A stretch of DNA of 33,925 bases, taken from positions 1-33,925 of the forward strand of contig JAHCKS010000059.1 of NCBI GenBank assembly GCA_026125665.1, read 5' to 3'. The position numbers were made by a program, and so were the translations under genes. This document shows positions 3,032 to 31,239 of this stretch, piece by piece. Each line of letters opens with the position of its first letter. The stretch's first letter is position 1. Source of the stretch: Rubrivivax sp. GTDB taxonomy: Bacteria; Pseudomonadota; Gammaproteobacteria; Burkholderiales; Burkholderiaceae_C. Under the pieces are notes generated by a model. The model did no database searches. It was not told the origin of the DNA and was given only the letters and a program-made list of their open reading frames with translations.

Positions 3032-3529
3032 ATGAAGACCTTTCGTCTGACGATGACCGCAGCGCTGGTGGGCGGCCTGTTCGCCGCCGCGGCCCCGGCG
3101 CAAGCCGTGGCCTGTGGCGAAGAGCGGCTGACGCGCGCCGAGGTGGTGGCCGCGACCCACGCCGCGCGCGAGCGCGGCGAGCTCGGCGTGATGGCCGGCG
3201 AGGACAGCGGCTCGTTCTGGATGTCGCGCCAGCCGGTCGCCGTGACGCCGCGCGCCGCGGCGGTGGCGCAAGCCTCGCCCGGCCTCGCGGGTGAAGACGG
3301 CGGTTCCTTCGCGCTCTCGCGCGAGACGCTGGCCGACCCGCGCACGCGCGCCGAGGTGCAGGCCGAGGCCGCGCTGGCCAACCGCCTGGCCTGGACGGTG
3401 ACGGTGACCGGCGAGGACGGCGGCGCCGCCGGCGTGGCCGCCGTGCTGCCGCGCGAGGACCGCGTGCTGGCCCAGCACGGCTTCGCCTGCCCGATGCCGA
3501 TGGCCGCGCTGCGCACCGTCGTGCGCTGA
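3032..3529 (+). CDS. Exported DUF4148-like protein with GEDxG repeats
   Basis: 165 residues with a clear signal peptide (MKTFRLTMTAALVGG to AQA at about 25). LTRAEVVAATHAARERGEL (33-51) resembles the DUF4148 motif common in Burkholderiales secreted proteins, and RTRAEVQAE (104-112) echoes it. A short motif recurs three times: GEDSGSFWMSR (56-66), GEDGGSFALSR (87-97) and GEDGG (127-131). Two cysteines (C28, C152) sit at the ends of the mature chain and could form a disulfide. GGGAGA lies just before the ATG. Function unknown for the family. It follows two other exported proteins and is closed by hairpins downstream. The DUF4148 assignment rests on one motif and is moderate. Confidence 0.72.
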   Translation: MKTFRLTMTAALVGGLFAAAAPAQAVACGEERLTRAEVVAATHAARERGELGVMAGEDSGSFWMSRQPVAVTPRAAAVAQASPGLAGEDGGSFALSRETLADPRTRAEVQAEAALANRLAWTVTVTGEDGGAAGVAAVLPREDRVLAQHGFACPMPMAALRTVVR

Positions 3530-3553
3530 AGCGGCGACGTCGCTCGCCACCGA

Positions 3554-3572
3554 CGAGCTCCACGGGAGCTCG
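3554..3572. other. Short perfect hairpin CGAGCTCC-ACG-GGAGCTCG
   Basis: Perfect 8-bp inverted repeat with a 3-base loop, 24 bases after the stop of the DUF4148-like gene and directly before the stronger hairpin at 3576. The two together probably form a compound 3' end. No T tract follows. Confidence 0.5.
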
Positions 3573-3575
3573 GCT

Positions 3576-3605
3576 GCAGGGGGCGGCCTCCGGGCCGCCC
3601 CCTGC
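3576..3605 (+). terminator. Strong GC-rich hairpin, probable terminator
   Basis: Perfect 13-bp stem, GCAGGGGGCGGCC (3576-3588) with GGCCGCCCCCTGC (3593-3605), around the loop TCCG. It sits between the exported-protein block and the beta-oxidation block. The following bases lack a clear T run, so it is either a weak intrinsic terminator or a 3'-end stabilising stem. Confidence 0.6.
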
Positions 3606-21020: not shown

Positions 21021-21557
21021 ATGGCCGTGCGCGAGATCCTGAAGATGGGCGATCCGCGCCTGCTGCGCGTGGCGCAGCCGGTGCGAGTGTTCGGTACACC
21101 CGAGCTGCACGCGCTGGTCGCCGACATGTTCGACACGATGGCTGCGGCGAACGGCGCCGGCCTCGCGGCACCGCAGATCGGCGTGGACCTGCAGGTGGTG
21201 ATCTTCGGCTTCGAGAAGAACGAGCGCTACCCGGATGCGCCGCCGGTGCCGCCCACGGTGCTCGTCAACCCGCTCGTCACGCCGCTGTCGGACGAGATGG
21301 TGGAAGGCTGGGAGGGCTGCCTCTCGGTGCCGGGGCTGCGCGGCGTGGTGCCGCGCCATGCGCGCGTGCGCTACCGCGGCTGGAGCGAGAAGGGCGAGCT
21401 GATCGAGCGCGAGGTCGACGGCTTCCACGCGCGCGTCGTGCAGCACGAGTGCGACCACCTCGTCGGCCGGCTGTACCCCACGCGCATGACCGACCTGACG
21501 AGGCTCGGCTTCACGAGCGTGCTGTTCCCGGAGCTCGCGGACGCGAGCGACGACTGA
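21021..21557 (+). CDS. def: Peptide deformylase
   Basis: 178 residues, metalloprotease removing the formyl group from nascent N-terminal formyl-methionine. All three motifs are present: [10 protein letters not shown] (motif 1), EGCLSVP (motif 2, metal-binding Cys) and QHECDHLVG (motif 3, the two metal His and catalytic Glu). GGGAGGG lies just upstream of the ATG. It follows ligA by 39 bp and may share its transcript. No fmt gene is adjacent, so this could be a second deformylase copy in the genome (inference). The 3' end runs straight into the palindromic repeat at 21558. Confidence 0.97.
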
Positions 21558-21716
21558 GAAGCTGTGAACGAACCCTCCACGCCCGCTCGTCACGCCAAAC
21601 GACGCCCGCTCGTCGTTGCAAATGCTCGCCATAGCCCGAGCTATGGCTGCGCTTTGCGCCTAGATCGGGCGCCGTTTGGCGTGCCGCTCGGGCGCGGCCG
21701 GTTCATTCACAGCTTC
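21558..21716. repeat. 159-bp imperfect palindromic intergenic element
   Basis: The ends are near-perfect inverted repeats: GAAGCTGTGAACGAACC (21558-21574) against GGTTCATTCACAGCTTC (21700-21716). Further in, CACGCCAAACG and CGTTTGGCGTG pair, and the centre is CCATAGC-CCGA-GCTATGG (21629-21646). The left arm holds a direct repeat ACGCCCGCTCGTC at 21579 and 21602. It begins at the base after the def stop and ends 55 bp before the stop of the convergent phzF-like gene, so it may act as a bidirectional terminator. The form is that of a dispersed palindromic repeat or small non-autonomous element. No transposase is present. Confidence 0.82.
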
Positions 21717-21770
21717 TGAGGGCCCGCGCGGCAGCCTCGGGCTCGGCGGGCCCGGCGCGGCCGGCGCGGC

Positions 21771-22664
21771 TCAGGCGACCAGCCTGCCCTCGACGACCGG
21801 CACCACGCTGCCGCCGACGCTGACGGCCCGCGCCTCGCCGGCGCCGCGCGCACGCAACCGCACGAGCGACGGACGAGCGACCTCGTGGCCCTGCTCGATG
21901 CGCAGCGCGAGCTCCGGGCGGTCGCCGAAGAAGCGGTTGTCGAGCAGGTGGTGGCCGAGGAACGCCGCGGCGTTGCCCGTCGCTGGATCCTCGCGCACGC
22001 CGCGGGCTTCGAAGAAGAAGCGCGCCGCCAGGTCGTTCTCGGGCCGCTGCGTCTCGGTGCAGAAGACGTAGACGAGCGGGTCGAAGCCGGCGGCGGCGAG
22101 CGGCGCGAACGCGGCCAGATCGAGCCGCGCGCGGCCGAGCGCCGCACGACTGCGCAACGGCACGACCAGCGCCGAAATGCCGGCCGTGTACTGCTGCACC
22201 GGTGCACGCGTGTCGATGTCCGCCACGGCGATGCCGAGGGCGGCGGCGATCGGCCCGGCCGGGCAGGTGACGCCGCGGACCACGGGCGGCGCCGTGAGCC
22301 ACGCCACCTCGCCGCCGGCGTCGCGCTCGAAGGCCACGCGCACGGGCCCGACCGGCACGTGCAGCAGCACCGGACCGTCGGCCCGGGGCGTGAGGTGCCG
22401 GCGAACGACCCAGGCCGTGCCGAGGATCGGGTGCCCGCCGAAGGGCATCTCGCGCACCGGGGTGAACATGCGCACGCGCCAGCCGCCGTCGGGCAGCGGC
22501 GCGGACGACATGACGAAGGTCGTTTCCGAGTAGTCGATCTCGGCGGCCAGCTGCTGCATCGACTCGGCGGACAGTCGATCGGCGTCGAGCACGACGGCAA
22601 GCGGATTGCCGCCGTACGACCGGTCGGTGAAGACGTCGACGGTGAAGAAACGTGGTGGGTTCAT
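21771..22664 (-). CDS. PhzF-family isomerase-like protein
   Basis: 297 residues with the two-domain PhzF fold. FFTVDVFTDRSYGGNPLAVV covers 6-25, the catalytic-position Glu is in YSETTFV (about 46-52), MPFGGHPILGTA (about 72-83) starts the substrate loop, and EDPATGNAAAF the second-domain loop. PhzF itself isomerises a phenazine precursor; most family members act on unknown small molecules, and no phenazine genes are here. The ATG overlaps the transporter stop by 4 bp, making it the last gene of the minus-strand operon. A link to a substrate of that transporter is possible. Confidence 0.9.
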   Translation of the reverse strand: MNPPRFFTVDVFTDRSYGGNPLAVVLDADRLSAESMQQLAAEIDYSETTFVMSSAPLPDGGWRVRMFTPVREMPFGGHPILGTAWVVRRHLTPRADGPVLLHVPVGPVRVAFERDAGGEVAWLTAPPVVRGVTCPAGPIAAALGIAVADIDTRAPVQQYTAGISALVVPLRSRAALGRARLDLAAFAPLAAAGFDPLVYVFCTETQRPENDLAARFFFEARGVREDPATGNAAAFLGHHLLDNRFFGDRPELALRIEQGHEVARPSLVRLRARGAGEARAVSVGGSVVPVVEGRLVA

Positions 22665-23959
22665 GGCGTTCGATGCTGCCGGGGCGGCGCCGCCGGCGCG
22701 GCGGTTCCTGCAGCGGGTGCCGGCCGCGCCCACGACCGGACGATAGCGCCTGCGGCGAGCACGACGAAGGGCACCGTGGTCAGGTTCAGCTCGGCCCAGC
22801 CGATCGTCGCGACGAGCGCGCCGGCCGCGCCCGATGACGTGATCATCACGAGGAAGACGACGAGGTCGTTGACGCCCTGCGCGTGCGCCTTCTCGTCGGC
22901 GGTGTAGGTGGTGGTCAGCAGCAGCGTGGCGCCGGTGAACATGAGGTTCCACCCGAGCCCCAGCGCCACCAGCGCGGCCCGGAAGTGCCCCGCCGACTCG
23001 CCATGCTGGCTGACGGCCACTGCGGCGAGCATCGCGGCGCAGCCGGCGAGCATGACCGCGTGCGTGCCGTGGCGGCGCACGAGCGCGCCGGTGAAGAAGC
23101 CGGGCGCGAACATCGCGACGACGTGCCACTGGATGACGCCGGTGGACTGCGCGACCCCGAAGCCGCACCGGTCCATCGCCAGCGGCGTGGCGTTCATCAG
23201 CAGGTTCATCGTGCCGAAGCCCACGGCCGCCACGCCCACCGCGACGAGGAACTCCGGCTGCACCACGATGCGCGCCAGCGGCCGCCGGGTGGCCGCCCCC
23301 GTCGCGGCCGGGGCCGGGATGCGCAGCCGGCTCGCCAGGACGAGCGCGATCAGCGCGACGGCGGCCAGCGCCGCAAAGCTGCCGGCGTAGGTGACCGGCA
23401 GCGCTTCGCGCGTGAGGCTGGCGAGCTCGGGGCCGACGAAGCCGCCGGCGATGCCGCCGGCGAGCACCCACGACATCGCGCGCTCCCGCGCGTCGTGCCC
23501 GCAGGCCTCGGCCACATCGACGGCGGCGAAGCGCAGGTACTGCGCGAACGCGTTGTAGATGCCGAGCGCGAACGACCCGGCACACAGGCCGGCGAAGCTC
23601 CCCGCCAGCATGGCGACCGCGCCGATGGCCGCGCCGACGGCGCCGCTGGCGGCGCCGAAGACGAAGCCGGCGCGCCGTCCGAAGCGCCCCATCGCCAACG
23701 ACGCCGGCAGCGTCGCCAGCGCCGCGCCGACGAAGTACACCGTCACCGGCAACGTCGCCCACGGCGGCGCCGGTGCCAGCGCCAGCCCGGCCAGCCCGTT
23801 CACGGCCACGAGCGCCACGCTGTTGACCTGCAGCAGCGCCTGGCAGGCGGCGAGCAGCGCGATCTGGCGGCGTGCGCCTGCCGGGCTCTCCGACACCTGC
23901 GGCGGCTCGACGGCCGTCGCGGCCGCGCCACCGCGCAGCGAACCGGCCGCAGGCGTCAC
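22661..23959 (-). CDS. MFS transporter
   Basis: 432 residues from GTG 23959, the only well-placed start, which overlaps the peroxidase stop in GTGA. About twelve hydrophobic segments run from IALLAACQALLQVNSVALV to the C-terminus. The signature MGRFGRRAGFVFGAASG between helices 2 and 3 is the major-facilitator loop (G-R-x-G-R-R). The protein belongs to the inner-membrane MFS class; close members are often annotated as YcaD/UMF1-like or general permeases. The cargo is unknown. It lies within the sulfur/redox operon and is coupled both to the peroxidase before it and to the PhzF-like gene after it. Confidence 0.87.
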   Translation of the reverse strand: MTPAAGSLRGGAAATAVEPPQVSESPAGARRQIALLAACQALLQVNSVALVAVNGLAGLALAPAPPWATLPVTVYFVGAALATLPASLAMGRFGRRAGFVFGAASGAVGAAIGAVAMLAGSFAGLCAGSFALGIYNAFAQYLRFAAVDVAEACGHDARERAMSWVLAGGIAGGFVGPELASLTREALPVTYAGSFAALAAVALIALVLASRLRIPAPAATGAATRRPLARIVVQPEFLVAVGVAAVGFGTMNLLMNATPLAMDRCGFGVAQSTGVIQWHVVAMFAPGFFTGALVRRHGTHAVMLAGCAAMLAAVAVSQHGESAGHFRAALVALGLGWNLMFTGATLLLTTTYTADEKAHAQGVNDLVVFLVMITSSGAAGALVATIGWAELNLTTVPFVVLAAGAIVRSWARPAPAAGTAAPAAPPRQHRTP

Positions 23960-24966
23960 GGGCGCTGCCCCGGCGGTGCGTAGCTCGCCGGCACGTCGCC
24001 GCTCAGCGACTCGAGGAAGGCGACGATCGCGGCCACCTCGTCGTCGCCGAGGTGCTGCCCGAGCTGCACCGCGGCCATCACGCGCACCGCGGCGTCGAGC
24101 GTGGCCACCGAGCCGTCGTGGAAGTACGGTGCGGTGCGCGCCACGTTGCGCAGCATCGGCACGCGGAAGACATGGCGGTCCTCTTCCCTCTTCGTGACGG
24201 CGTGGCGGCCTTCGTCGATGCGCGCCGAGCCGGTGGCAAGCCAGTAGTCCCGCACGACGCCGAAGCGCCGCCAGGCGTTGCCGCCGAGCAGCGCGCCGTC
24301 GTGGCAGCCGGCGCAGCCGCGTTCGATGAAGAGCTTCAAGCCGGCCTTCTGCCGCGCGTCCAGTGCCGCCGCGTCGCCGCCGAGGTAGCGGTCGAACGGC
24401 GCCGGCGTGACGAGCGTGGCCTCGTAGGCGGCGATGGCGCGGCCGTAGTTGCGCGCGTTGACCGGTTCGGCCTCGTCCGCGAAGGCGGCGCGAAACGCCG
24501 CCTCGTAGCCGGACTGCCGCAGCAGCGGCACGATCTCGTCCTTGTTGCGAAAGCCCATCGAACCGGTGATGGAACCCTCGGCCTGCTCGGCGCCGCTGCG
24601 GCGGTCGCCGAGCCAGCGCAGCGTCGGCTGGCGCAGCGCGTTGAAGACCGTGGGCGAGTTGCGCGCCGTCGCCTTGCCGCGGGCGTCGATCGACGCGGCC
24701 CGCCGGTCGGCGCCCCCCTCCCCGGCGGCGTGGCAGCTGGCGCAGGACGTCCTGCCGTCCGCCGACAACCGCGTGTCCCAGTACAGCGCGCGCCCCAGCT
24801 CGACCTGGGCGAGCGGTCCGGGTGCGGCCGGCTCGAGGCGGCCGAAGCGCCGGGCTGCTTCGGCCTGCAGCGGGTCCTGCGCAAGCGCCACACCGGCGGC
24901 GGCGATGGTGCCCGACAGCACCCAACGCATCGCGCCATGCCAGCGTCTCGCCATCGTTTCGTTCAT
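23956..24966 (-). CDS. Dihaem cytochrome c peroxidase (CcpA/MauG family)
   Basis: 336 residues. An N-terminal hydrophobic segment ending in ALAQ (about 14-30) is a Sec signal, so it is periplasmic. Two haem-attachment motifs are present: CASCH (75-79) and CAGCH (218-222). NSPTVFNA (103-110) and FRVPMLRNVARTAPYFHDGS, the conserved stretch at 267-286, are classic for the family. It reduces hydrogen peroxide with electrons from a small cytochrome c, or oxidises a partner protein as MauG does. AGGGAGC precedes the ATG. It follows the sulfide dehydrogenase genes, so the small FccA-like cytochrome could supply electrons (inference). Confidence 0.92.
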   Translation of the reverse strand: MNETMARRWHGAMRWVLSGTIAAAGVALAQDPLQAEAARRFGRLEPAAPGPLAQVELGRALYWDTRLSADGRTSCASCHAAGEGGADRRAASIDARGKATARNSPTVFNALRQPTLRWLGDRRSGAEQAEGSITGSMGFRNKDEIVPLLRQSGYEAAFRAAFADEAEPVNARNYGRAIAAYEATLVTPAPFDRYLGGDAAALDARQKAGLKLFIERGCAGCHDGALLGGNAWRRFGVVRDYWLATGSARIDEGRHAVTKREEDRHVFRVPMLRNVARTAPYFHDGSVATLDAAVRVMAAVQLGQHLGDDEVAAIVAFLESLSGDVPASYAPPGQRP

Positions 24967-25030
24967 CGTTGCTCCCTCGTTCGCGGTGCCTTCGTCAAGC
25001 CGCGCCGGCCGCGGCCCGCCCCCTCGCCTT

Positions 25031-26368
25031 TCAGCTGAGCATGTCGGCCCAGATCGTTCGCGCCCAGCCCCAGGCGTACTGCCCCTCGGTCAGCCAGGCG
25101 GCGCGGTCGTGGCCCGAGACGCCACCGGCGCCCGGCACCGGCTCCAGCGTCCTCTTCTCCGGCACCCAGCGGTGCACGCTGGCCACGTGCACGGCGCTCT
25201 GGCCGTCGATGAAGCTGTAGCAGGTGTTGGCCATGCGCGGCGGTTCGGGTGGGTGGCCGGACATCAGCGCGACGATGGCCGCGGCGGCCGCCTTGCCGTG
25301 CTGGTTGGCCATGTGGCCCGACTTCGGCATGCCCGGCGCCGACGCGGTGGCGTCGCCGAGCACGTGCACGCCGGGGAGCGCGAGCGACTCCATCGTCATC
25401 CAGTCGACGCGGCACCAGCTCTCGCCGGGCGCGAGCAGACCGGCCACGTGCGCGAACTCGCCGGCGCGCTGCGGCGGCACGAGGTTGACGACGTCGCCGC
25501 GCACGCGTTCACCCATGTCGGTGACGAGCGTGCGGCTCGTGGCATCGACCTCGATCACGCGGTGGTTCGGCCGGTACTCGACGAGGCCGGCGTAGTCCTC
25601 GGCGAAGACGCGCGCGAAGAGCGCCTTCTTGCTGACGATGTCCGGGTTCGCGTCCAGCAGCAGCAGCTTGGAGCGCGGCTTGGTGCGCTTGAGGTAGCTG
25701 GCGATCTGACAGGCCCTTTCGTACGGCCCGGGCGGGCAGCGATAGGGCGCGGCCGGCATCGCGACGACGACGGTGCCGTCGTCGGGCATCTCGACGAGGC
25801 GCCGGCGCAGCGCGAGCGTCTGCTCGCCGGCCTTCCACGCGTGCGGCATCGCTGCCTGCGCCTCGGGGGTGAAGCCGGCGATGCGCCCGGGCAGCAGCTC
25901 GATGCCCGGCGCAACGACGAGGCGGTCGTAGGAGAGCGGCGCGCCGGCCGCCACGTGCAGCCGCCGCGCAGCGGCATCGAGCGCGACGGCGCGGTCGTGC
26001 ACGACGCGCACGCCGCGGCGCACGAGGCCGTCGTAGCCGAGCGTCAGCTGCGAGAGCTCGCGGTGGCCGCCGAGCACGAGGTTGCTGATCGGGCACGAGA
26101 CGAAGGCCGGGTTCGGCTCGACGAGCACGACCTCGATCGCGCCGGCGGACCACAGGCGCAGGTACTTCGCGGCCGTGGCGCCGCCGAAGCCGCCGCCGAC
26201 GACGACGACGCGGCCGAGGTGGTTCGCCCGGGCGGGCGGCGCTGCGCAGCCGCCAAGCGCGGCGCCGAGCGCGGCACCGCCGGCCAGCGTGGCGGCCAGC
26301 GCCGCGCGGCGCGACAAGGACCGGGTGCCGGCGCGCGTGTCGCGGGGCAGGGGGCTGGAGCGATGCAT
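25031..26368 (-). CDS. fccB: Flavocytochrome c sulfide dehydrogenase, flavoprotein subunit
   Basis: 445 residues. It oxidises sulfide to sulfur in the periplasm, passing electrons to a cytochrome c partner. The N-terminus has a twin-arginine signal (SLSRRAALAATLAGG, 17-31) ending in LGGC with C41, so the mature protein may be lipidated. FAD binding starts at VVVVGGGFGG (54-63). C92 in SCPISNLV fits the cysteine that holds FAD covalently in FCSD; C211 in YRCPPGPYE and C319 in SWCRVD fit the redox disulfide pair. VHVLGDA (335-341) is the second FAD motif. The cytochrome gene is immediately upstream. AAGGAAC lies before the ATG. Also described as SoxF in some organisms. Confidence 0.93.
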   Translation of the reverse strand: MHRSSPLPRDTRAGTRSLSRRAALAATLAGGAALGAALGGCAAPPARANHLGRVVVVGGGFGGATAAKYLRLWSAGAIEVVLVEPNPAFVSCPISNLVLGGHRELSQLTLGYDGLVRRGVRVVHDRAVALDAAARRLHVAAGAPLSYDRLVVAPGIELLPGRIAGFTPEAQAAMPHAWKAGEQTLALRRRLVEMPDDGTVVVAMPAAPYRCPPGPYERACQIASYLKRTKPRSKLLLLDANPDIVSKKALFARVFAEDYAGLVEYRPNHRVIEVDATSRTLVTDMGERVRGDVVNLVPPQRAGEFAHVAGLLAPGESWCRVDWMTMESLALPGVHVLGDATASAPGMPKSGHMANQHGKAAAAAIVALMSGHPPEPPRMANTCYSFIDGQSAVHVASVHRWVPEKRTLEPVPGAGGVSGHDRAAWLTEGQYAWGWARTIWADMLS

Positions 26369-26394
26369 GCTGTGTTCCTTTCGGCTTTGCGCCT

Positions 26395-26751
26395 TCACTT
26401 CTGCGCCTCGAAGTACGCGGCGATCGCCGCCACCTCGTCGTCGCGGTAGCCCCTGGCGATCTGGTGCATCAGCGTCGCCGGCCGCTGGCCGTCGCGGAAC
26501 TGGCGCATCGCCAGCACCGTCTGCGCCGCGGGCCGGCCGGCCAGCGGCGGCATCGCGCCTTCGGCGCGCCCTTGCGTGCCATGGCAGTTGGCGCAGTTGG
26601 CCGCGAGGAAGGCGCCGCGGGGGTCGGCGCCCGGGCCGGCGGCCGTGGCGGGCTGGCCGTGCAGCAGCAGCGGCAGCGCGACGGCCAGGGTAGACAGCGC
26701 CCCGAGGGCCGGGCAGGCCAGGGTGGCGCGGATCAGCGGGCGCAGCGACAT
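26395..26751 (-). CDS. fccA: Monohaem cytochrome c, sulfide dehydrogenase partner
   Basis: 118 residues with a signal segment (about 8-38, ending ATAAG). One haem site, CANCH (53-57), and a distal methionine M95 in PATLMHQIARGY, the pattern of the cytochrome subunit of flavocytochrome c. It is a periplasmic electron acceptor for the flavoprotein encoded 26 bp downstream. The Allochromatium subunit has two haems; this one has a single haem, as in Chlorobium-type enzymes. GAGGAG precedes the ATG. It could also serve the peroxidase two genes later. An ordinary soluble c-type cytochrome is the only other reading. Confidence 0.9.
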   Translation of the reverse strand: MSLRPLIRATLACPALGALSTLAVALPLLLHGQPATAAGPGADPRGAFLAANCANCHGTQGRAEGAMPPLAGRPAAQTVLAMRQFRDGQRPATLMHQIARGYRDDEVAAIAAYFEAQK

Positions 26752-26835
26752 CTCGTGTCTCCTCGTTGGACGGGTCGGTCGGGGCGATGGGCAGGGCGGG
26801 CGCGGCCAGGCACGGCCAGGCGCGCCCGACGGGCC

Positions 26836-27216
26836 TCACCAGTGCCAGAGGCGGTCGTAGCCGGCCGCGAGCGACGGCAGGCCGGCAAAGGGCAGCGGCT
26901 GCGGTCCTTCGACGAGCTCGCCGGCCTCGATGCCCAGGCGCGCCAGGTCCTCCTGCAGCACGAAGACCTGCGCCCCCTTGGCCATCAGCGCCGCGAGGTC
27001 GCGCTCGATGCGCGGCGGCTGCGTCTGCCGCCAGCGGCCGAACTGCAGCCCGCCGGCGTCCTGCCCGCGCACGGCGTAGTTGGCGGCGTTGCCGACGAGC
27101 AGCACGTCGGCGCCGGCGCCGGCGCCGCGCAGTGCCTGCGTCAGCCACAGCACGGTGTCGTCCTGCTCCTCGAGCGTGGCGCGGTAGGCCGATTCGACGA
27201 TGTTCAGTACCTTCAT
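26836..27216 (-). CDS. DsrE-superfamily protein without cysteine
   Basis: 126 residues, cytosolic, no signal peptide. The DsrE/TusBCD-like fold is suggested by MKVLNIVESAYRATLEEQDD at the start, the strand-loop DVLLVGNAANYAV (about 38-50) and QVFVLQEDLARLGI (about 83-96), which matches the EDL-x-R/L-G segment of the family. It has no cysteine at all, so it cannot itself carry a persulfide, and it probably plays a structural role in a hetero-oligomer with its two neighbours (inference). Ends in LWHW, similar to the LWH end of the protein from 28015. Ribosome site weak; 34 bp after the previous gene. Confidence 0.78.
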   Translation of the reverse strand: MKVLNIVESAYRATLEEQDDTVLWLTQALRGAGAGADVLLVGNAANYAVRGQDAGGLQFGRWRQTQPPRIERDLAALMAKGAQVFVLQEDLARLGIEAGELVEGPQPLPFAGLPSLAAGYDRLWHW

Positions 27217-27250
27217 GGTGGTGGTTCCCGTTGATGCGTGTCGCGGGGCG

Positions 27251-27661
27251 TCACTCGCGCGTGGCGATGACGAGCGTGTTGACGGCGTCGCGCGCCTGCT
27301 GCCAGAAGTCGGCGGGGGTGCCGCGGCGCACGCCGTCGATGCACTGGCCGGCGCCACGTTCGTCGACGCACAGGCCGCAGTTGATCCACTCGAGGCTGCC
27401 GCCGGTCTGCCTGGCCAGCAGCATCAGCTCGCCGATCACCTCGCGCGGCAGGCAGTGGTTCTCCTCCTCCACCGACAGGCCGTGCACGGCGTTGGCATGC
27501 CGCTGCTGCAGCGCAAACGGCTGCATCACCGCGCCCTCGTAGGCGAAGACCTTGACGTGGCAGCCGCGGCGCGCCGCGGCGGCGATGAGGCGGTGCGCGG
27601 CGGTCGAGCGCGCGCTCTCGAAAGGCGCGTCCATCAGCGCGAAGCTCAGGGTCGGGTTCAT
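27251..27661 (-). CDS. DsrE/TusD-like sulfur relay protein
   Basis: 136 residues, cytosolic. The opening LSFALMDAPFESARSTAAHR and the strand KVFAYEGAVM match the TusD/DsrE pattern (FF-Y-H-x-G-V in E. coli TusD). The segment EWINCGLCVDERG (91-103) places C95 and C98 near the position of the persulfide-bearing Cys of DsrE/TusD. C34, C70 and C107 are also present; five cysteines in 136 residues is high for this family. Predicted to accept or deliver sulfane sulfur in the cytosol. GGAGGAA precedes the ATG. No tusE or dsrC partner is visible in the window. Confidence 0.82.
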   Translation of the reverse strand: MNPTLSFALMDAPFESARSTAAHRLIAAAARRGCHVKVFAYEGAVMQPFALQQRHANAVHGLSVEEENHCLPREVIGELMLLARQTGGSLEWINCGLCVDERGAGQCIDGVRRGTPADFWQQARDAVNTLVIATRE

Positions 27662-27682
27662 GCGGGATTCCTCCGGTGCAGT

Positions 27683-28015
27683 TCAGTGCCAGAGCACCCT
27701 GGTGCCATCGAGCAGCCGCTCGACCACGACATCGAGCGGCGCCGCCGACACCCCGGGCGCGAGGCGCGCCGCGCCGATGCCGCGTTCGGCGAGCGAGAAG
27801 CTGTCGGCGAACACGGGCACGCCGGCCGCGTGCAGGCGCGCCAGGTCGGTGGTGCGGGCGCCACGGCGTGCCGCGAACACGCCGTTGTTGACCAGCATCA
27901 CGCTGGCCGGCTGGCCGGCCGCGGCCAGTGCGAGCGCGAAGCTCGTGCACCAGCCGCCACCCGCGGGTGCGAACGGGTCGCGCGATTCGATCAGCATCCA
28001 CGACGACGAGGTCAT
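27683..28015 (-). CDS. DsrE/TusB-like protein, first gene of the sulfur operon
   Basis: 110 residues, cytosolic. ASVMLVNNGVFAARRGA (about 31-47) and GVPVFADSFSLAERGI (about 59-74) align with TusB/DsrH (LLLQDGV...ALNEDLIARGL) and other short DsrE-like proteins. The single cysteine is C23 in GGWCTSF; whether it is redox-active is unknown. It ends in LWH. AAGGAGAA is a strong ribosome site and favours ATG 28015 over an upstream in-frame ATG at 28057. It lies 21 bp before the TusD-like gene. With its two neighbours it makes a trio resembling TusBCD/DsrEFH in size and fold, but in a different order and without dsrAB. Confidence 0.8.
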   Translation of the reverse strand: MTSSSWMLIESRDPFAPAGGGWCTSFALALAAAGQPASVMLVNNGVFAARRGARTTDLARLHAAGVPVFADSFSLAERGIGAARLAPGVSAAPLDVVVERLLDGTRVLWH

Positions 28016-28060
28016 GCGGTTTCTCCTTGCGGTTCGGGTCGTTCGGGTGAGGGCCACCCG

Positions 28061-28131
28061 CGGGAACGCAGGCTAGGAGGGCAGCGTTCCGCGCCGTTCC
28101 GCGGCGTCCCGTCGTCCCGCGCCGTCCTGCC
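28061..28131. promoter_or_regulatory. Phased direct repeats in the divergent promoter region
   Basis: On the plus strand CGTTCCGCG occurs at 28085 and 28095, CGTCCCG at 28105, CGTCCCGCG at 28113 and CGTCCTGCC at 28123: five related copies with steps of 10, 10, 8 and 10. An inverted half (GGGAACG) lies at 28062. On the minus strand TAGCCT (28075-28070) is a possible -10 for the sulfur operon, and the two best copies would straddle its -35 position. Further down, GTTCGGGT is repeated at 28032 and 28041 inside the leader. Short direct repeats at one helical turn are the kind of site SARP-type regulators use, and such a regulator starts at 28210. Binding is inferred. Confidence 0.55.
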
Positions 28132-28209
28132 GACGAAGGGCGGGCGCGGCGGCGACAAGCGCGCGGCGCTGCGGGCGCCGGCGTACATTGGCGCGCCCGG
28201 TTCCGTCCG

Positions 28210-31200
28210 GTGGCGTGGCGGCGGACGCGTCCGGCCGCGGCCGGACGACAAAGCCCGGCGCCGCGCCTGGCCCGCGCCCGCCGCCTCGCCGAGAACGACG
28301 ATCCCGCTGCACCTTGCTCGCTTCGCCTTTACGGCAGCCCCGTCGTCGCGCGGAGCGGCGGTGCGGCCCCACCCTGGCCGGCGCAGCGGCGCACGGCGCT
28401 GCTGGCGCTGCTGGCGCTGCGCGGCGACTGGGTGCCGCGGCGCGACCTCGCCGCACTGCTGTGGCCCGGCCTGCCGCGCGCCCGTGCGCTGACGAATCTG
28501 CGCAAGGCTTGGCACTTCGCGCACGAGCTCGTGCGCGGCTCGGGCCTGCAGGCGCCGCTCGAGGCGACCGCCGACGCGTTGCGCTGGGCGCCGCCGAGCG
28601 ACGCGCAGCGGTTCGAGCGGGCGCAGCGCGATGGCCGCTGGGCCGACGCGCTGGCGGCGCAGGACGGCGTGCTGCTCGACGGGCTCGACGACCCCGACAA
28701 CGCCGCCTGGACCGAGTGGCTGCACGCCGAGCGCGCGCAGCACCGGCGCGACTGGCACGTCGCCGCGCGCGCCCGGCTGGCCCAGCTGGCCGACGACCCG
28801 CCGCGCGCGCAGACGCTGGCGCGCGCGCTGCTGGCCGACGATCCGCTGGACGAGGACGCGATGGTCGCGCTGCTCGGCGCGCAGCGTGCCGCGCAGCGAC
28901 ACGCCGAGCAGCGCGAGACCTACCGTGCCTACGCGCAGCGGCTCGACGACGAGCTCGGCGTCGAGCCGTCGGCGCGCGTGCGGGCGCAGCTCGCCGGCAC
29001 GTCACCGGCCGCCGCCGGCCTGATCGGCCGCGCGGCCGAGCTGGCCGCGCTGCGCGCGCTGCTGGGCGAAGGCGGCCCGCGGCTCGTCACGATCGTCGGG
29101 CCGGGCGGCATGGGCAAGAGTGCGCTGCTGAAGGCGCTGCTGCGCCAGGGCACCGCGCACCACGGCGCGCGCTGGCTCGCGCTGGACGACCTGCTGAACG
29201 CGGCGCAGGCGGCGCTCAGGCTGTGCGGCGAGCTCGGCGTGCAGCCGCATGCGGGCGAGTCGCCGCAGCAGGCGGCCAGCCGCGCGCTGGCCGAGTCGGC
29301 CGCCGGCGCGCCGCTGCTGGCGCTGGACAACTGCGAGCACCTGGCCGGCGTCGCACCGCTGGTGCAGGCCTGGCTCGATGCCGCGCCGCGGCTGCGCATC
29401 GTCGCCACCTCGCGCGAGCGCCTGGGCGTGCCCGGCGAAAAGCTGCTCGAGCTGCGCGGCCTGTCGCTGCCGGCCGCGCACGCGGGCTCGGCCGATGCGC
29501 TGGACAGCGACGCGGTGCGGCTGTTCGTGGCCGGAGCCCGCAACGTGCAACCCGACTTCGATGCCGGCCGCGAAGGGCCGGCGATGGCGGCGCTCGTGCG
29601 TTCGCTCGGCGGGCTGCCGCTGGCGCTGCTGCTGGCCGCGCACTGGGTGCGGCGGCTGACGGTGGCGGAGATCGGTGCCGAGCTGCGGCAGTCCCTGGCG
29701 CTGCTGGCCAGCGCCGAAGAGGGCGACGAGCGCCCGGAGCACCGCAGCGTCGAGGCGACGTTCGCGCGCTCGTGGCAGCGGCTGGCGGCGCACGAGCAGC
29801 GCGTGCTGGCCGCGCTGTCGGTGTTCCCCGGCAGCTTCACGCTCGCCGCCGCGGCCGACGTGGCACGCACCAGCCCGCCGCTGCTCGGCGCGCTGGCGGA
29901 CAAGTCGCTGCTGCACTTCGAGCCGGCAGGGCGCGTGGCGCTGCACCCGCTGATCCGCCGTTATGCCGCCGCCAGGCTGCGCGACGGCGCCGGTGAACGC
30001 GAGCGCCTGGCGCTGTACTTCCTGCGCTGGCTGGCGCAGCTCGCGCCGCGCGCCGGCAAGGGCGACAGCGAGGCGATCGACGAGATCGGCCGCGAGCTGG
30101 AGAACTGCCGCCAGGCCTGGGCTTGGGGCGTGGCGCAGCGCCACTTCGGCCCGCTCGGCGATGCGGTGGGGGCGTTGCGGCACTTCTTCGTCGTGCGCGC
30201 GCAGATGACCGAGGGGCTGTCGCTGTTGCAGACGGCGCGCTGCAGCGACGCGCCGCCGGAGTTCGTGGCGCGGCTGGAGACGGCGCTGGGGCAGCTGTGC
30301 TACCGCTGCCATCGCCTGCCCGAGGCCGAGGAGGCGGCGCGCCGCGGCATCGCGGCGGCGCGCGCCGCCGGCCGCCGGGAGCTTCTGGCGCAGTGCCTGA
30401 GCGTGCTCGGTGTCAGCGCCTACCAGCGCGGGCAGGCACCGGCGGCGCGCCGCCTGCTCGAGCGGGCCTTGACGCATGCACGTGCCGCCGGCGACCAGGC
30501 CGCCTTCTCGCTCGCGCAGGCCAACCTGGCGCTGGTCGAGCGCGAACTGGGCCACGTGGAACAGGCGCTGTCGATCATGGCCGAGTGGCTGCCGGTGCAG
30601 CGTGCCGCGGGCGACTGGCTGCGTGTCACGCTGGGGCTGTCGAACCAGGGGCTGATGCTGCTGGACCTCGGCCGCTTCGCGCAGGCCGAGGAGGCGCTGA
30701 CCGAGGGCCTGCGCCTGTGCGACGAACACCGGCTCGACGCCGCGCGCACCGGGCTCATGGTCAACCTCGCCGAGACCCTCGTGCAACTCGGCCGCCTGGA
30801 CGAGGCCGAGGCGATGTGCCGGCGCACGCTGGAGCTGCTGGCCGGCGGCCAGCGGCCGGAGATCGCGGCGCAGGCGCGCAACGTGCTCACGCACGCGGCG
30901 CTGGCCAGAGGCGACATGTCCGCGGCGCGCCGACGCGTTCGCGAGGCCGCCGAGGCGGCGCTGCGCACGCAGCTGGTCGCCTCGCTGCTCGAGGTGGTGC
31001 TCTGCGACGCCCTCGTGCGCTTGAGCGAGCGCGATGTCGAGACGGCGCGCCGGCAGCTCGCCTGGTACCTGACGCAGCCGCGGCTGGAGGTGCCGGACCG
31101 GCGGCGTGCGACCGAGGCACTGAACGCCCTGCCGTCCGCGCGGCCGGGTGCGCGGCCGGGTGCGCGCCCGGCGGGGCGCGCGGAGGCGCCGCCGCTGGAG

Positions 31201-31239
31201 CTGCGGTCGCTCGTGCGGGCCATCGCCGGCGGGCGATGA
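28210..31239 (+). CDS. SARP-type winged-helix/BTAD/STAND ATPase transcriptional regulator
   Basis: 1009 residues from GTG 28210, the best visible start though its ribosome site is weak. A winged-helix DNA-binding domain (about 37-105: LRLYGSP...RRTALLALLALRG...RRDLAALLWP) is followed by a BTAD helical domain (about 130-262). A STAND-type ATPase carries Walker A GPGGMGKS (297-304), Walker B LLALDNCEHL (369-378) and sensor VATSRERLG (398-406). The rest, about 620-960, is helical and TPR-like with repeated Ala/Leu pairs. This is the AfsR/MalT-like plan: ligand or protein signal, ATP-driven assembly, then activation. It is divergent from the sulfur operon, with direct repeats between, so control of that operon is the simplest inference. 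The signal is unknown. Confidence 0.88.
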   Translation: MAWRRTRPAAAGRQSPAPRLARARRLAENDDPAAPCSLRLYGSPVVARSGGAAPPWPAQRRTALLALLALRGDWVPRRDLAALLWPGLPRARALTNLRKAWHFAHELVRGSGLQAPLEATADALRWAPPSDAQRFERAQRDGRWADALAAQDGVLLDGLDDPDNAAWTEWLHAERAQHRRDWHVAARARLAQLADDPPRAQTLARALLADDPLDEDAMVALLGAQRAAQRHAEQRETYRAYAQRLDDELGVEPSARVRAQLAGTSPAAAGLIGRAAELAALRALLGEGGPRLVTIVGPGGMGKSALLKALLRQGTAHHGARWLALDDLLNAAQAALRLCGELGVQPHAGESPQQAASRALAESAAGAPLLALDNCEHLAGVAPLVQAWLDAAPRLRIVATSRERLGVPGEKLLELRGLSLPAAHAGSADALDSDAVRLFVAGARNVQPDFDAGREGPAMAALVRSLGGLPLALLLAAHWVRRLTVAEIGAELRQSLALLASAEEGDERPEHRSVEATFARSWQRLAAHEQRVLAALSVFPGSFTLAAAADVARTSPPLLGALADKSLLHFEPAGRVALHPLIRRYAAARLRDGAGERERLALYFLRWLAQLAPRAGKGDSEAIDEIGRELENCRQAWAWGVAQRHFGPLGDAVGALRHFFVVRAQMTEGLSLLQTARCSDAPPEFVARLETALGQLCYRCHRLPEAEEAARRGIAAARAAGRRELLAQCLSVLGVSAYQRGQAPAARRLLERALTHARAAGDQAAFSLAQANLALVERELGHVEQALSIMAEWLPVQRAAGDWLRVTLGLSNQGLMLLDLGRFAQAEEALTEGLRLCDEHRLDAARTGLMVNLAETLVQLGRLDEAEAMCRRTLELLAGGQRPEIAAQARNVLTHAALARGDMSAARRRVREAAEAALRTQLVASLLEVVLCDALVRLSERDVETARRQLAWYLTQPRLEVPDRRRATEALNALPSARPGARPGARPAGRAEAPPLELRSLVRAIAGGR

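Follow-up and report, generated by a model that had tools for sequence, protein, structure and literature searches.

A fixed trio of DsrE-family genes, joined to fccAB in Rubrivivax and more often to cysJI elsewhere, as a candidate sulfane-sulfur carrier

Why does one run of genes in Rubrivivax sp. place three DsrE-family proteins next to a flavocytochrome c sulfide dehydrogenase (FccAB)? The stretch analyzed here, hereafter the window, comprises 33,925 nucleotides (contig JAHCKS010000059.1 of assembly GCA_026125665.1, positions 1 to 33,925) and contains eight minus-strand genes at 21771-28015, transcribed in the order D1, D2, D3, FccA, FccB, diheme cytochrome c peroxidase, MFS transporter and PhzF-family protein. 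Our results showed that D1, D2 and D3 form a trio whose gene order was the same wherever we found it. We lean, with somewhat more confidence than doubt, towards the trio being a DsrEFH-like carrier of sulfane sulfur, which here would serve the second FccAB of a sulfur oxidizer equipped with rDsr and Sox.

D1 (27683..28015), a DsrE/DsrH-like subunit of 110 aa that lacks a conserved Cys, was assigned to the family by the Pfam DsrE cut-off only (26.1 bits versus 22.7; aligned in 34 rows). D2 (27251..27661; DsrE/YchN-like, 136 aa) and D3 (26836..27216; DsrH-like, 126 aa) scored below the Pfam cut-offs for DsrE (21.0 versus 22.7 bits) and DsrH (19.4 versus 24.4 bits), respectively, and predicted structures placed both in the DsrE/DsrF/DsrH fold, with E. 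coli YchN as the top structural match, tied with DsrE or DsrH. The NCBIfam cut-offs for TusB, TusC and TusD were not reached by any of the three proteins; the best score was that of D1 against TusB (19.0 bits; cut-off 49.2), D3 gave 12.8 bits and D2 had no match. Within the D2 motif NCGLCxxERG..G..RGxP, C95 and C98 form a CxxC that was invariant in 34 of 34 alignment rows, and C95 lines up with the counterpart of the sulfur-carrying Cys78 in the canonical DsrE of this genome. D3 of the window, which has the motif EEQDDT.LW and a C-terminal WxW, contains no Cys, and no Cys is conserved across the 34 D3 rows. To judge from these alignments, D2 is likely to be the sulfur-carrying subunit of the trio. 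The same genome also encodes a lone DsrE-family protein (L044, 5603-5968) whose motif CGTCMDARG resembles the CxxC motif of D2.

The order D1-D2-D3 was found at 41 of 41 places, i.e., 33 loci of a D2 scan, the window, L069 and L070 (genomes G290 and G270), the plasmid loci L102 and L103, and three class-level genomes (L122-L124). The scan favored D2 relatives near enough to have a short peptide in common, and two of its loci (L018 and L020) come from one metagenome-assembled genome (MAG); five plasmid records carried D2, two of which were analyzed (L102 and L103), the other three being P. fungorum, like one of those. In overlapping samples of genomes from the family, order, class and phylum, with the window's own genome excluded, the prevalence of D2 is low: it was present in 1 of 199 family genomes, full-length in 2 of 398 order genomes (with nine more partial matches at E <= 0.001, each around the CxxC), and in 3 of 368 class and 0 of 397 phylum genomes (E <= 1e-20).

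The genes cysJ-cysI, encoding NADPH sulfite reductase, were directly upstream of the trio at 22 of the 41 places (22 of 36 loci in a dedicated comparison, and none at the remaining five, which are the window operon, L102 and L122-L124), with the aligned ends of CysI and D1 being 7-91 bp apart. These cysJ-cysI-D1-D2-D3 clusters include L016 (6202-10803), L103 (3201-7803), L069 and L070. fccAB was joined to the trio at three places (the window, L008 and L014). Thus, the commonest partner of the trio in the wider family is CysJI, not FccAB. All 22 CysI proteins next to the trio contain the motif C-x5-C ... C-x3-C, which we take to be the Fe-S/siroheme ligand motif. At the G290 trio, both reductase subunits satisfy their curated models; in L016, CysI reaches the broader PRK13504 while falling short of TIGR02041, and CysJ falls short of both CysJ models. 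A further two-part PF01077 gene of 550-573 aa was found elsewhere in seven of eight genomes with a cysJI-linked trio, G290 being without it, and is likely to encode a second CysI-type reductase. Furthermore, a fusion of persulfide dioxygenase and rhodanese lies directly downstream of the trio in L124 (8863-9897; 5ve3, E 2e-40), and the neighbor of the trio in L122 starts almost identically. Metallo-beta-lactamase genes are neighbors in L010 and L011; that of L011 was rejected as a persulfide dioxygenase, its PDB matches being of another kind.

In Methylophaga thalassica, the cysJI-trio cluster is on a plasmid, near an insertion sequence (IS) element (L103). In Methylophaga, the clusters are followed by ccoN of the cbb3 type and a gene resembling nitronate monooxygenase (L016, 10843-13492; L103, 7843-10487), and those of the Alcanivorax type have a more distant gene of the latter kind 18-72 bp behind D3. 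On plasmid pBIL of Paraburkholderia fungorum (L102, 8660-9799), the trio stands behind a gene for a heavy-metal ATPase, and another ATPase of this kind is encoded ~8 kb further on. A tree of 37 rows, drawn without L103 and L122-L124 and weakly supported at depth, grouped the window with L008 (0.996), with L014 apart, and united 19 cysJI loci and L070 in one clade (1.000), with L069 apart; the tree is compatible with fccAB having joined the trio once or twice, either of which may be the case.

We read the trio as a carrier of sulfane sulfur because zero-valent sulfur (S0) is either made or used by each of CysJI, FccAB and persulfide dioxygenase. According to a 2026 report, CysIJ releases S0 directly, not sulfide, and the authors note no evidence so far of DsrC taking part in this route (PMC13188885). 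The reported S0 release, together with the DsrEFH-like fold and the invariant CxxC, makes a carrier the best reading of the trio. In the mechanism that we propose, the periplasmic FccAB would oxidize sulfide to the zero-valent (sulfane) state, with the electrons passing to FccA; some of them may continue to the diheme peroxidase, which would reduce peroxide. Sulfane sulfur reaching the cytosol would be bound as a persulfide on Cys95 of D2, with Cys98 resolving, within a D1-D2-D3 complex resembling DsrEFH/TusBCD. From there it would go to a consumer, which could be TusA/DsrC with rDsrAB, a persulfide dioxygenase or a biosynthetic pathway. At other loci, the S0 picked up by this trio would come from CysJI. 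Formation of the complex, its persulfide chemistry, the direction of transfer and the partners are what we infer from the combined evidence.

Several points weigh against a carrier. FccAB is periplasmic, D1-D3 have no visible signal peptide and the operon has no known sulfur importer. The host already has a canonical DsrEFH, so that the trio looks redundant. The alignment of C95 with the DsrE Cys joins remote sequences (BLAST E 0.04), and C98 may be the carrier instead. D3 has no counterpart of DsrH Cys20, which is described as essential in A. vinosum (PMC3397948). Moreover, 14 of the 41 trios (15 with L122) are without cysJI, fccAB or a tested dioxygenase nearby, on stretches some of which are short (from 4.6 kb), and selected neighbors scanned among these 14 included heavy-metal ATPase, MsrP-like and thioredoxin-reductase-like genes. 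Finally, the CxxC of D2 would fit a redox role equally well. The trio would then be a thiol-disulfide redox or repair partner, in which D2 reduces S0, over-oxidized cysteines or cluster damage from sulfide or sulfite enzymes. We consider this role unlikely, since three DsrE-type subunits in a fixed order are nearer to sulfur relays than to thioredoxins and C95 of D2 aligns with a sulfur-carrying Cys.

The first-pass annotation of the window, made from its letters, had described the eight-gene run, named its products and linked periplasmic sulfide oxidation to the DsrE-type trio. The coordinates confirmed the gaps of 21, 34, 84, 26 and 64 bp, in transcription order, and the two 4-bp overlaps that follow; the gene identities were borne out by Pfam and PDB matches and by the predicted folds of D2 and D3. 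From spacing alone, the eight genes would be co-transcribed. By eye, a purine-rich stretch precedes the starts of D1, D2, FccA, FccB and the peroxidase, and is weak or missing before D3, MFS and PhzF. Neither promoter-like nor terminator-like sites were found in 21500-28400 (shuffles gave 0.1 and 1.6, respectively), a result of little weight at 73% G+C.

The link to sulfide oxidation held in three genomes, in which fccAB adjoins D1-D2-D3, and co-conservation, which had been suggested as a check, extended to all eight genes in two. In L014 (Betaproteobacteria MAG BroJett031), homologs of all eight lie on one strand within 6.6 kb, reordered as peroxidase, persulfide dioxygenase, FccA, FccB, D1, D2, D3, MFS and PhzF; the dioxygenase, located between the peroxidase and FccA, is ETHE1-like (4ysb, E 1e-59). 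Identity to the window over the aligned parts was 84% for the peroxidase, 77% for PhzF, 75% for MFS, 65% for FccB, 64% for FccA, 46-63% for the trio and 37% for the regulator. Because all eight genes recur within 6.6 kb in L014 and the trio order was kept in 33 of 33 loci of the D2 scan, the eight-gene run is not a product of chance. The 20-kb stretch of L008 has the regulator, the trio and fccAB only, with no homolog of the peroxidase, MFS or PhzF.

This last result bears on whether the peroxidase, MFS and PhzF are passengers, with fccAB and the trio as the sole functional unit, an arrangement that would be compatible with the carrier reading. MFS homologs are also widespread among family members, 201 of 299 genomes having one at E <= 1e-50 (the window's own genome counted), and none of 29 MFS loci, which were the best-scoring ones at about 4.2 kb each, had PhzF, peroxidase, Fcc or trio homologs alongside, so that a family-wide conserved MFS-PhzF pair was rejected. 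However, the L014 operon holds homologs of all three, 75-84% identical and reordered. The passenger explanation is a serious possibility, to which we give less than even weight.

Divergent from the operon is a gene for a BTAD/AAA/TPR (AfsR-like) regulator (28210..31239, plus strand; Pfam BTAD, AAA_16 and TPR_MalT). Among the 33 loci, only L008 and L014 had a match to it (E <= 1e-4); the L008 homolog immediately precedes the trio, and that of L014 lies upstream of the operon. Such a regulator could work with the trio if the latter were a sulfide or persulfide sensor controlling the operon, and it is present near the trio in three of three fccAB-linked loci; likewise, a LysR gene, by family or annotation, lies upstream of cysJ in both cysJI loci checked (L016 and L103). 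Nevertheless, the type of regulator varies with context while the trio is constant, and the Pfam matches of D1-D3 include no DNA-binding family, and we regard a sensor as improbable.

The annotation had further proposed a stand-alone module without dsrAB, soxYZ or dsrC. For the operon and the window this stands: tblastn at E 1e-3 gave no match to dsr, tusA or soxYZ, in a search that misses remote relatives, as the trio itself went undetected with dsrE, dsrF or dsrH queries. For the genome it does not. With some of the dsr and sox genes identified by eye, contig C243 holds dsrA,B,E,F,H,C,M,K (L043) with a YeeE-DsrE2-TusA group, as well as a second fccAB (L114), whose FccB is 53% identical over 344 residues, and contig C235 holds a sox cluster (L110), with two SoxY matches in the genome. 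In G686 (the genome of L008) and G690 (that of L014), the same eight dsr genes were matched, and fccAB was again present a second time. In agreement, among 18 genomes searched for PF09242, part of those bearing a trio, each of the three fccAB-trio genomes had two matches, while five others had a single match and the remaining ten had no match. A second DsrC-like gene, identified by eye, lies near the rDsr cluster of the window's genome (L043, 8357-8686), besides dsrC (3260-3592), and a second DsrC-like match was also found in G686 and G690. Since rDsr and another fccAB are present in all three fccAB-trio genomes, these sulfur oxidizers have the operon in addition to that machinery and not in its place. 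In a search of 17 genomes, with matches not tested singly, genomes such as Methylophaga have no evident dsrAB pair among their PF01077 places, which would suit a trio working independently of Dsr; even so, the genomic evidence contradicts the stand-alone module, which we consider very improbable.

Among the remaining products of the operon, FccAB qualifies by its sequence as a true flavocytochrome c sulfide dehydrogenase. FccB (25031..26368), with a twin-arginine leader by eye, matched FCSD_central (6e-40) and FCSD-flav_bind (1e-20) in Pfam and 1fcd (E 2.3e-111), 3vrd and 5n1t in the PDB; its Cys92, Cys211 and Cys383 line up with Cys of 1fcd, presumably the FAD/redox positions. The adjoining FccA (26395..26751) appears to be an exported single-heme cytochrome c (Pfam Cytochrome_CBB3/Cytochrom_C; one CXXCH, at residue 53; signal peptide by eye). 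The diheme cytochrome c peroxidase (23956..24966; Pfam CCP_MauG, 1.1e-38) has CXXCH at residues 75 and 218, and among PDB entries it is closest to cytochrome c551 peroxidases (E 2e-67), far ahead of MauG (2.7e-9 at best); a MauG-type role was therefore ruled out, and peroxide removal is plausible. The MFS transporter (22661..23959; GTG start; Pfam MFS_1, 1e-20) is 75% identical to the L014 copy, with identities no higher than 48% among the further matches listed for the 299 family genomes. The PhzF-family protein (21771..22664) matched Pfam PhzC-PhzF (6e-54) and exceeded the TIGR00654 cut-off (181 versus 76 bits). Both the transporter and the PhzF protein belong to large families. The roles that we ascribe to these last three proteins are putative.

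Returning to the carrier, we tentatively suggest, as a narrower idea which may well prove wrong, that the trio represents a DsrEFH-like complex of a third kind, whose carrier subunit has the CxxC and which receives S0 straight from CysJI or FccAB to supply cysteine synthesis, persulfide dioxygenase or rDsrAB. If this is true, the trio would be the carrier missing from the newly proposed S0 route of sulfate assimilation. With its links to cysJI (Methylophaga, Alcanivorax and relatives) and to fccAB (rDsr oxidizers), the trio is a testable candidate S0 carrier, and several of its hosts are named strains, hence open to gene removal and protein work. The presence of the same trio beside sulfite reductase and sulfide-oxidizing genes hints at a shared sulfur-carrying step.

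How does this locus compare with known systems? FccB is a clear homolog of its counterparts in 1fcd, 3vrd and 5n1t, with Cys positions kept, whereas the window operon adds the trio, peroxidase, MFS and PhzF. FccA carries one heme motif, in contrast to what we take to be two in the cytochrome subunit of 1fcd. E. coli YchN, the top structural match of D2 and D3, is a single gene, whereas three distinct subunits share one cassette here; the D2-like CxxC is likewise found in a DsrE-family protein of the window's genome. The methanethiol-oxidase clusters of Methylophaga thiooxydans resemble the operon in grouping a MauG-type peroxidase domain, a persulfide dioxygenase (as in the L014 operon) and a sulfide-oxidizing flavoprotein, but have SQR in place of FccAB, and DsrE goes unmentioned in the main text of that paper (PMC6548844).

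The closest comparison is with DsrEFH type I and TusBCD (A. vinosum 2hy5 and E. coli 2d1p), which form alpha2beta2gamma2 hexamers. In common with these, the trio has three DsrE-fold subunits encoded side by side (D1 by Pfam only) and, in a remote alignment, a candidate sulfur-carrying Cys at the position of DsrE Cys78. It differs in that the DsrE-like Cys subunit is the middle gene, D2 has a CxxC and not a single Cys, D3 is without Cys, the trio falls under the TusB/C/D model cut-offs, and its host also has a canonical DsrEFH. DsrEFH of types I and II is reported to bear sulfur on a DsrE Cys in vitro (PMC3397948; PMC13293266). Type II, from the YeeE-TusA-DsrE cluster of cable bacteria, is described in the latter study as syntenic with tusA and yeeE, mostly alongside reductive dsrAB, with subtype 1 taking in Pseudomonadota (21%); like our trio, it is a divergent DsrEFH-like trio missed by sequence models, with one conserved Cys subunit (PMC13293266). 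In contrast, there was no tusA/yeeE match in the window (E 1e-3) or in 36 trio loci (tblastn, E 1e-5), and the two TusA matches of the window's genome sit on other contigs. The trio may nonetheless belong to type II, above all subtype 1, from which we set it apart by the description of synteny and not by comparison of sequences. The open-access literature that we searched yielded no description of the trio or of its link to cysJI, and no biochemistry on it. Altogether, DsrEFH of types I and II has already been described, and what appears to be new here is the trio D1-D2-D3 as a fixed cassette.

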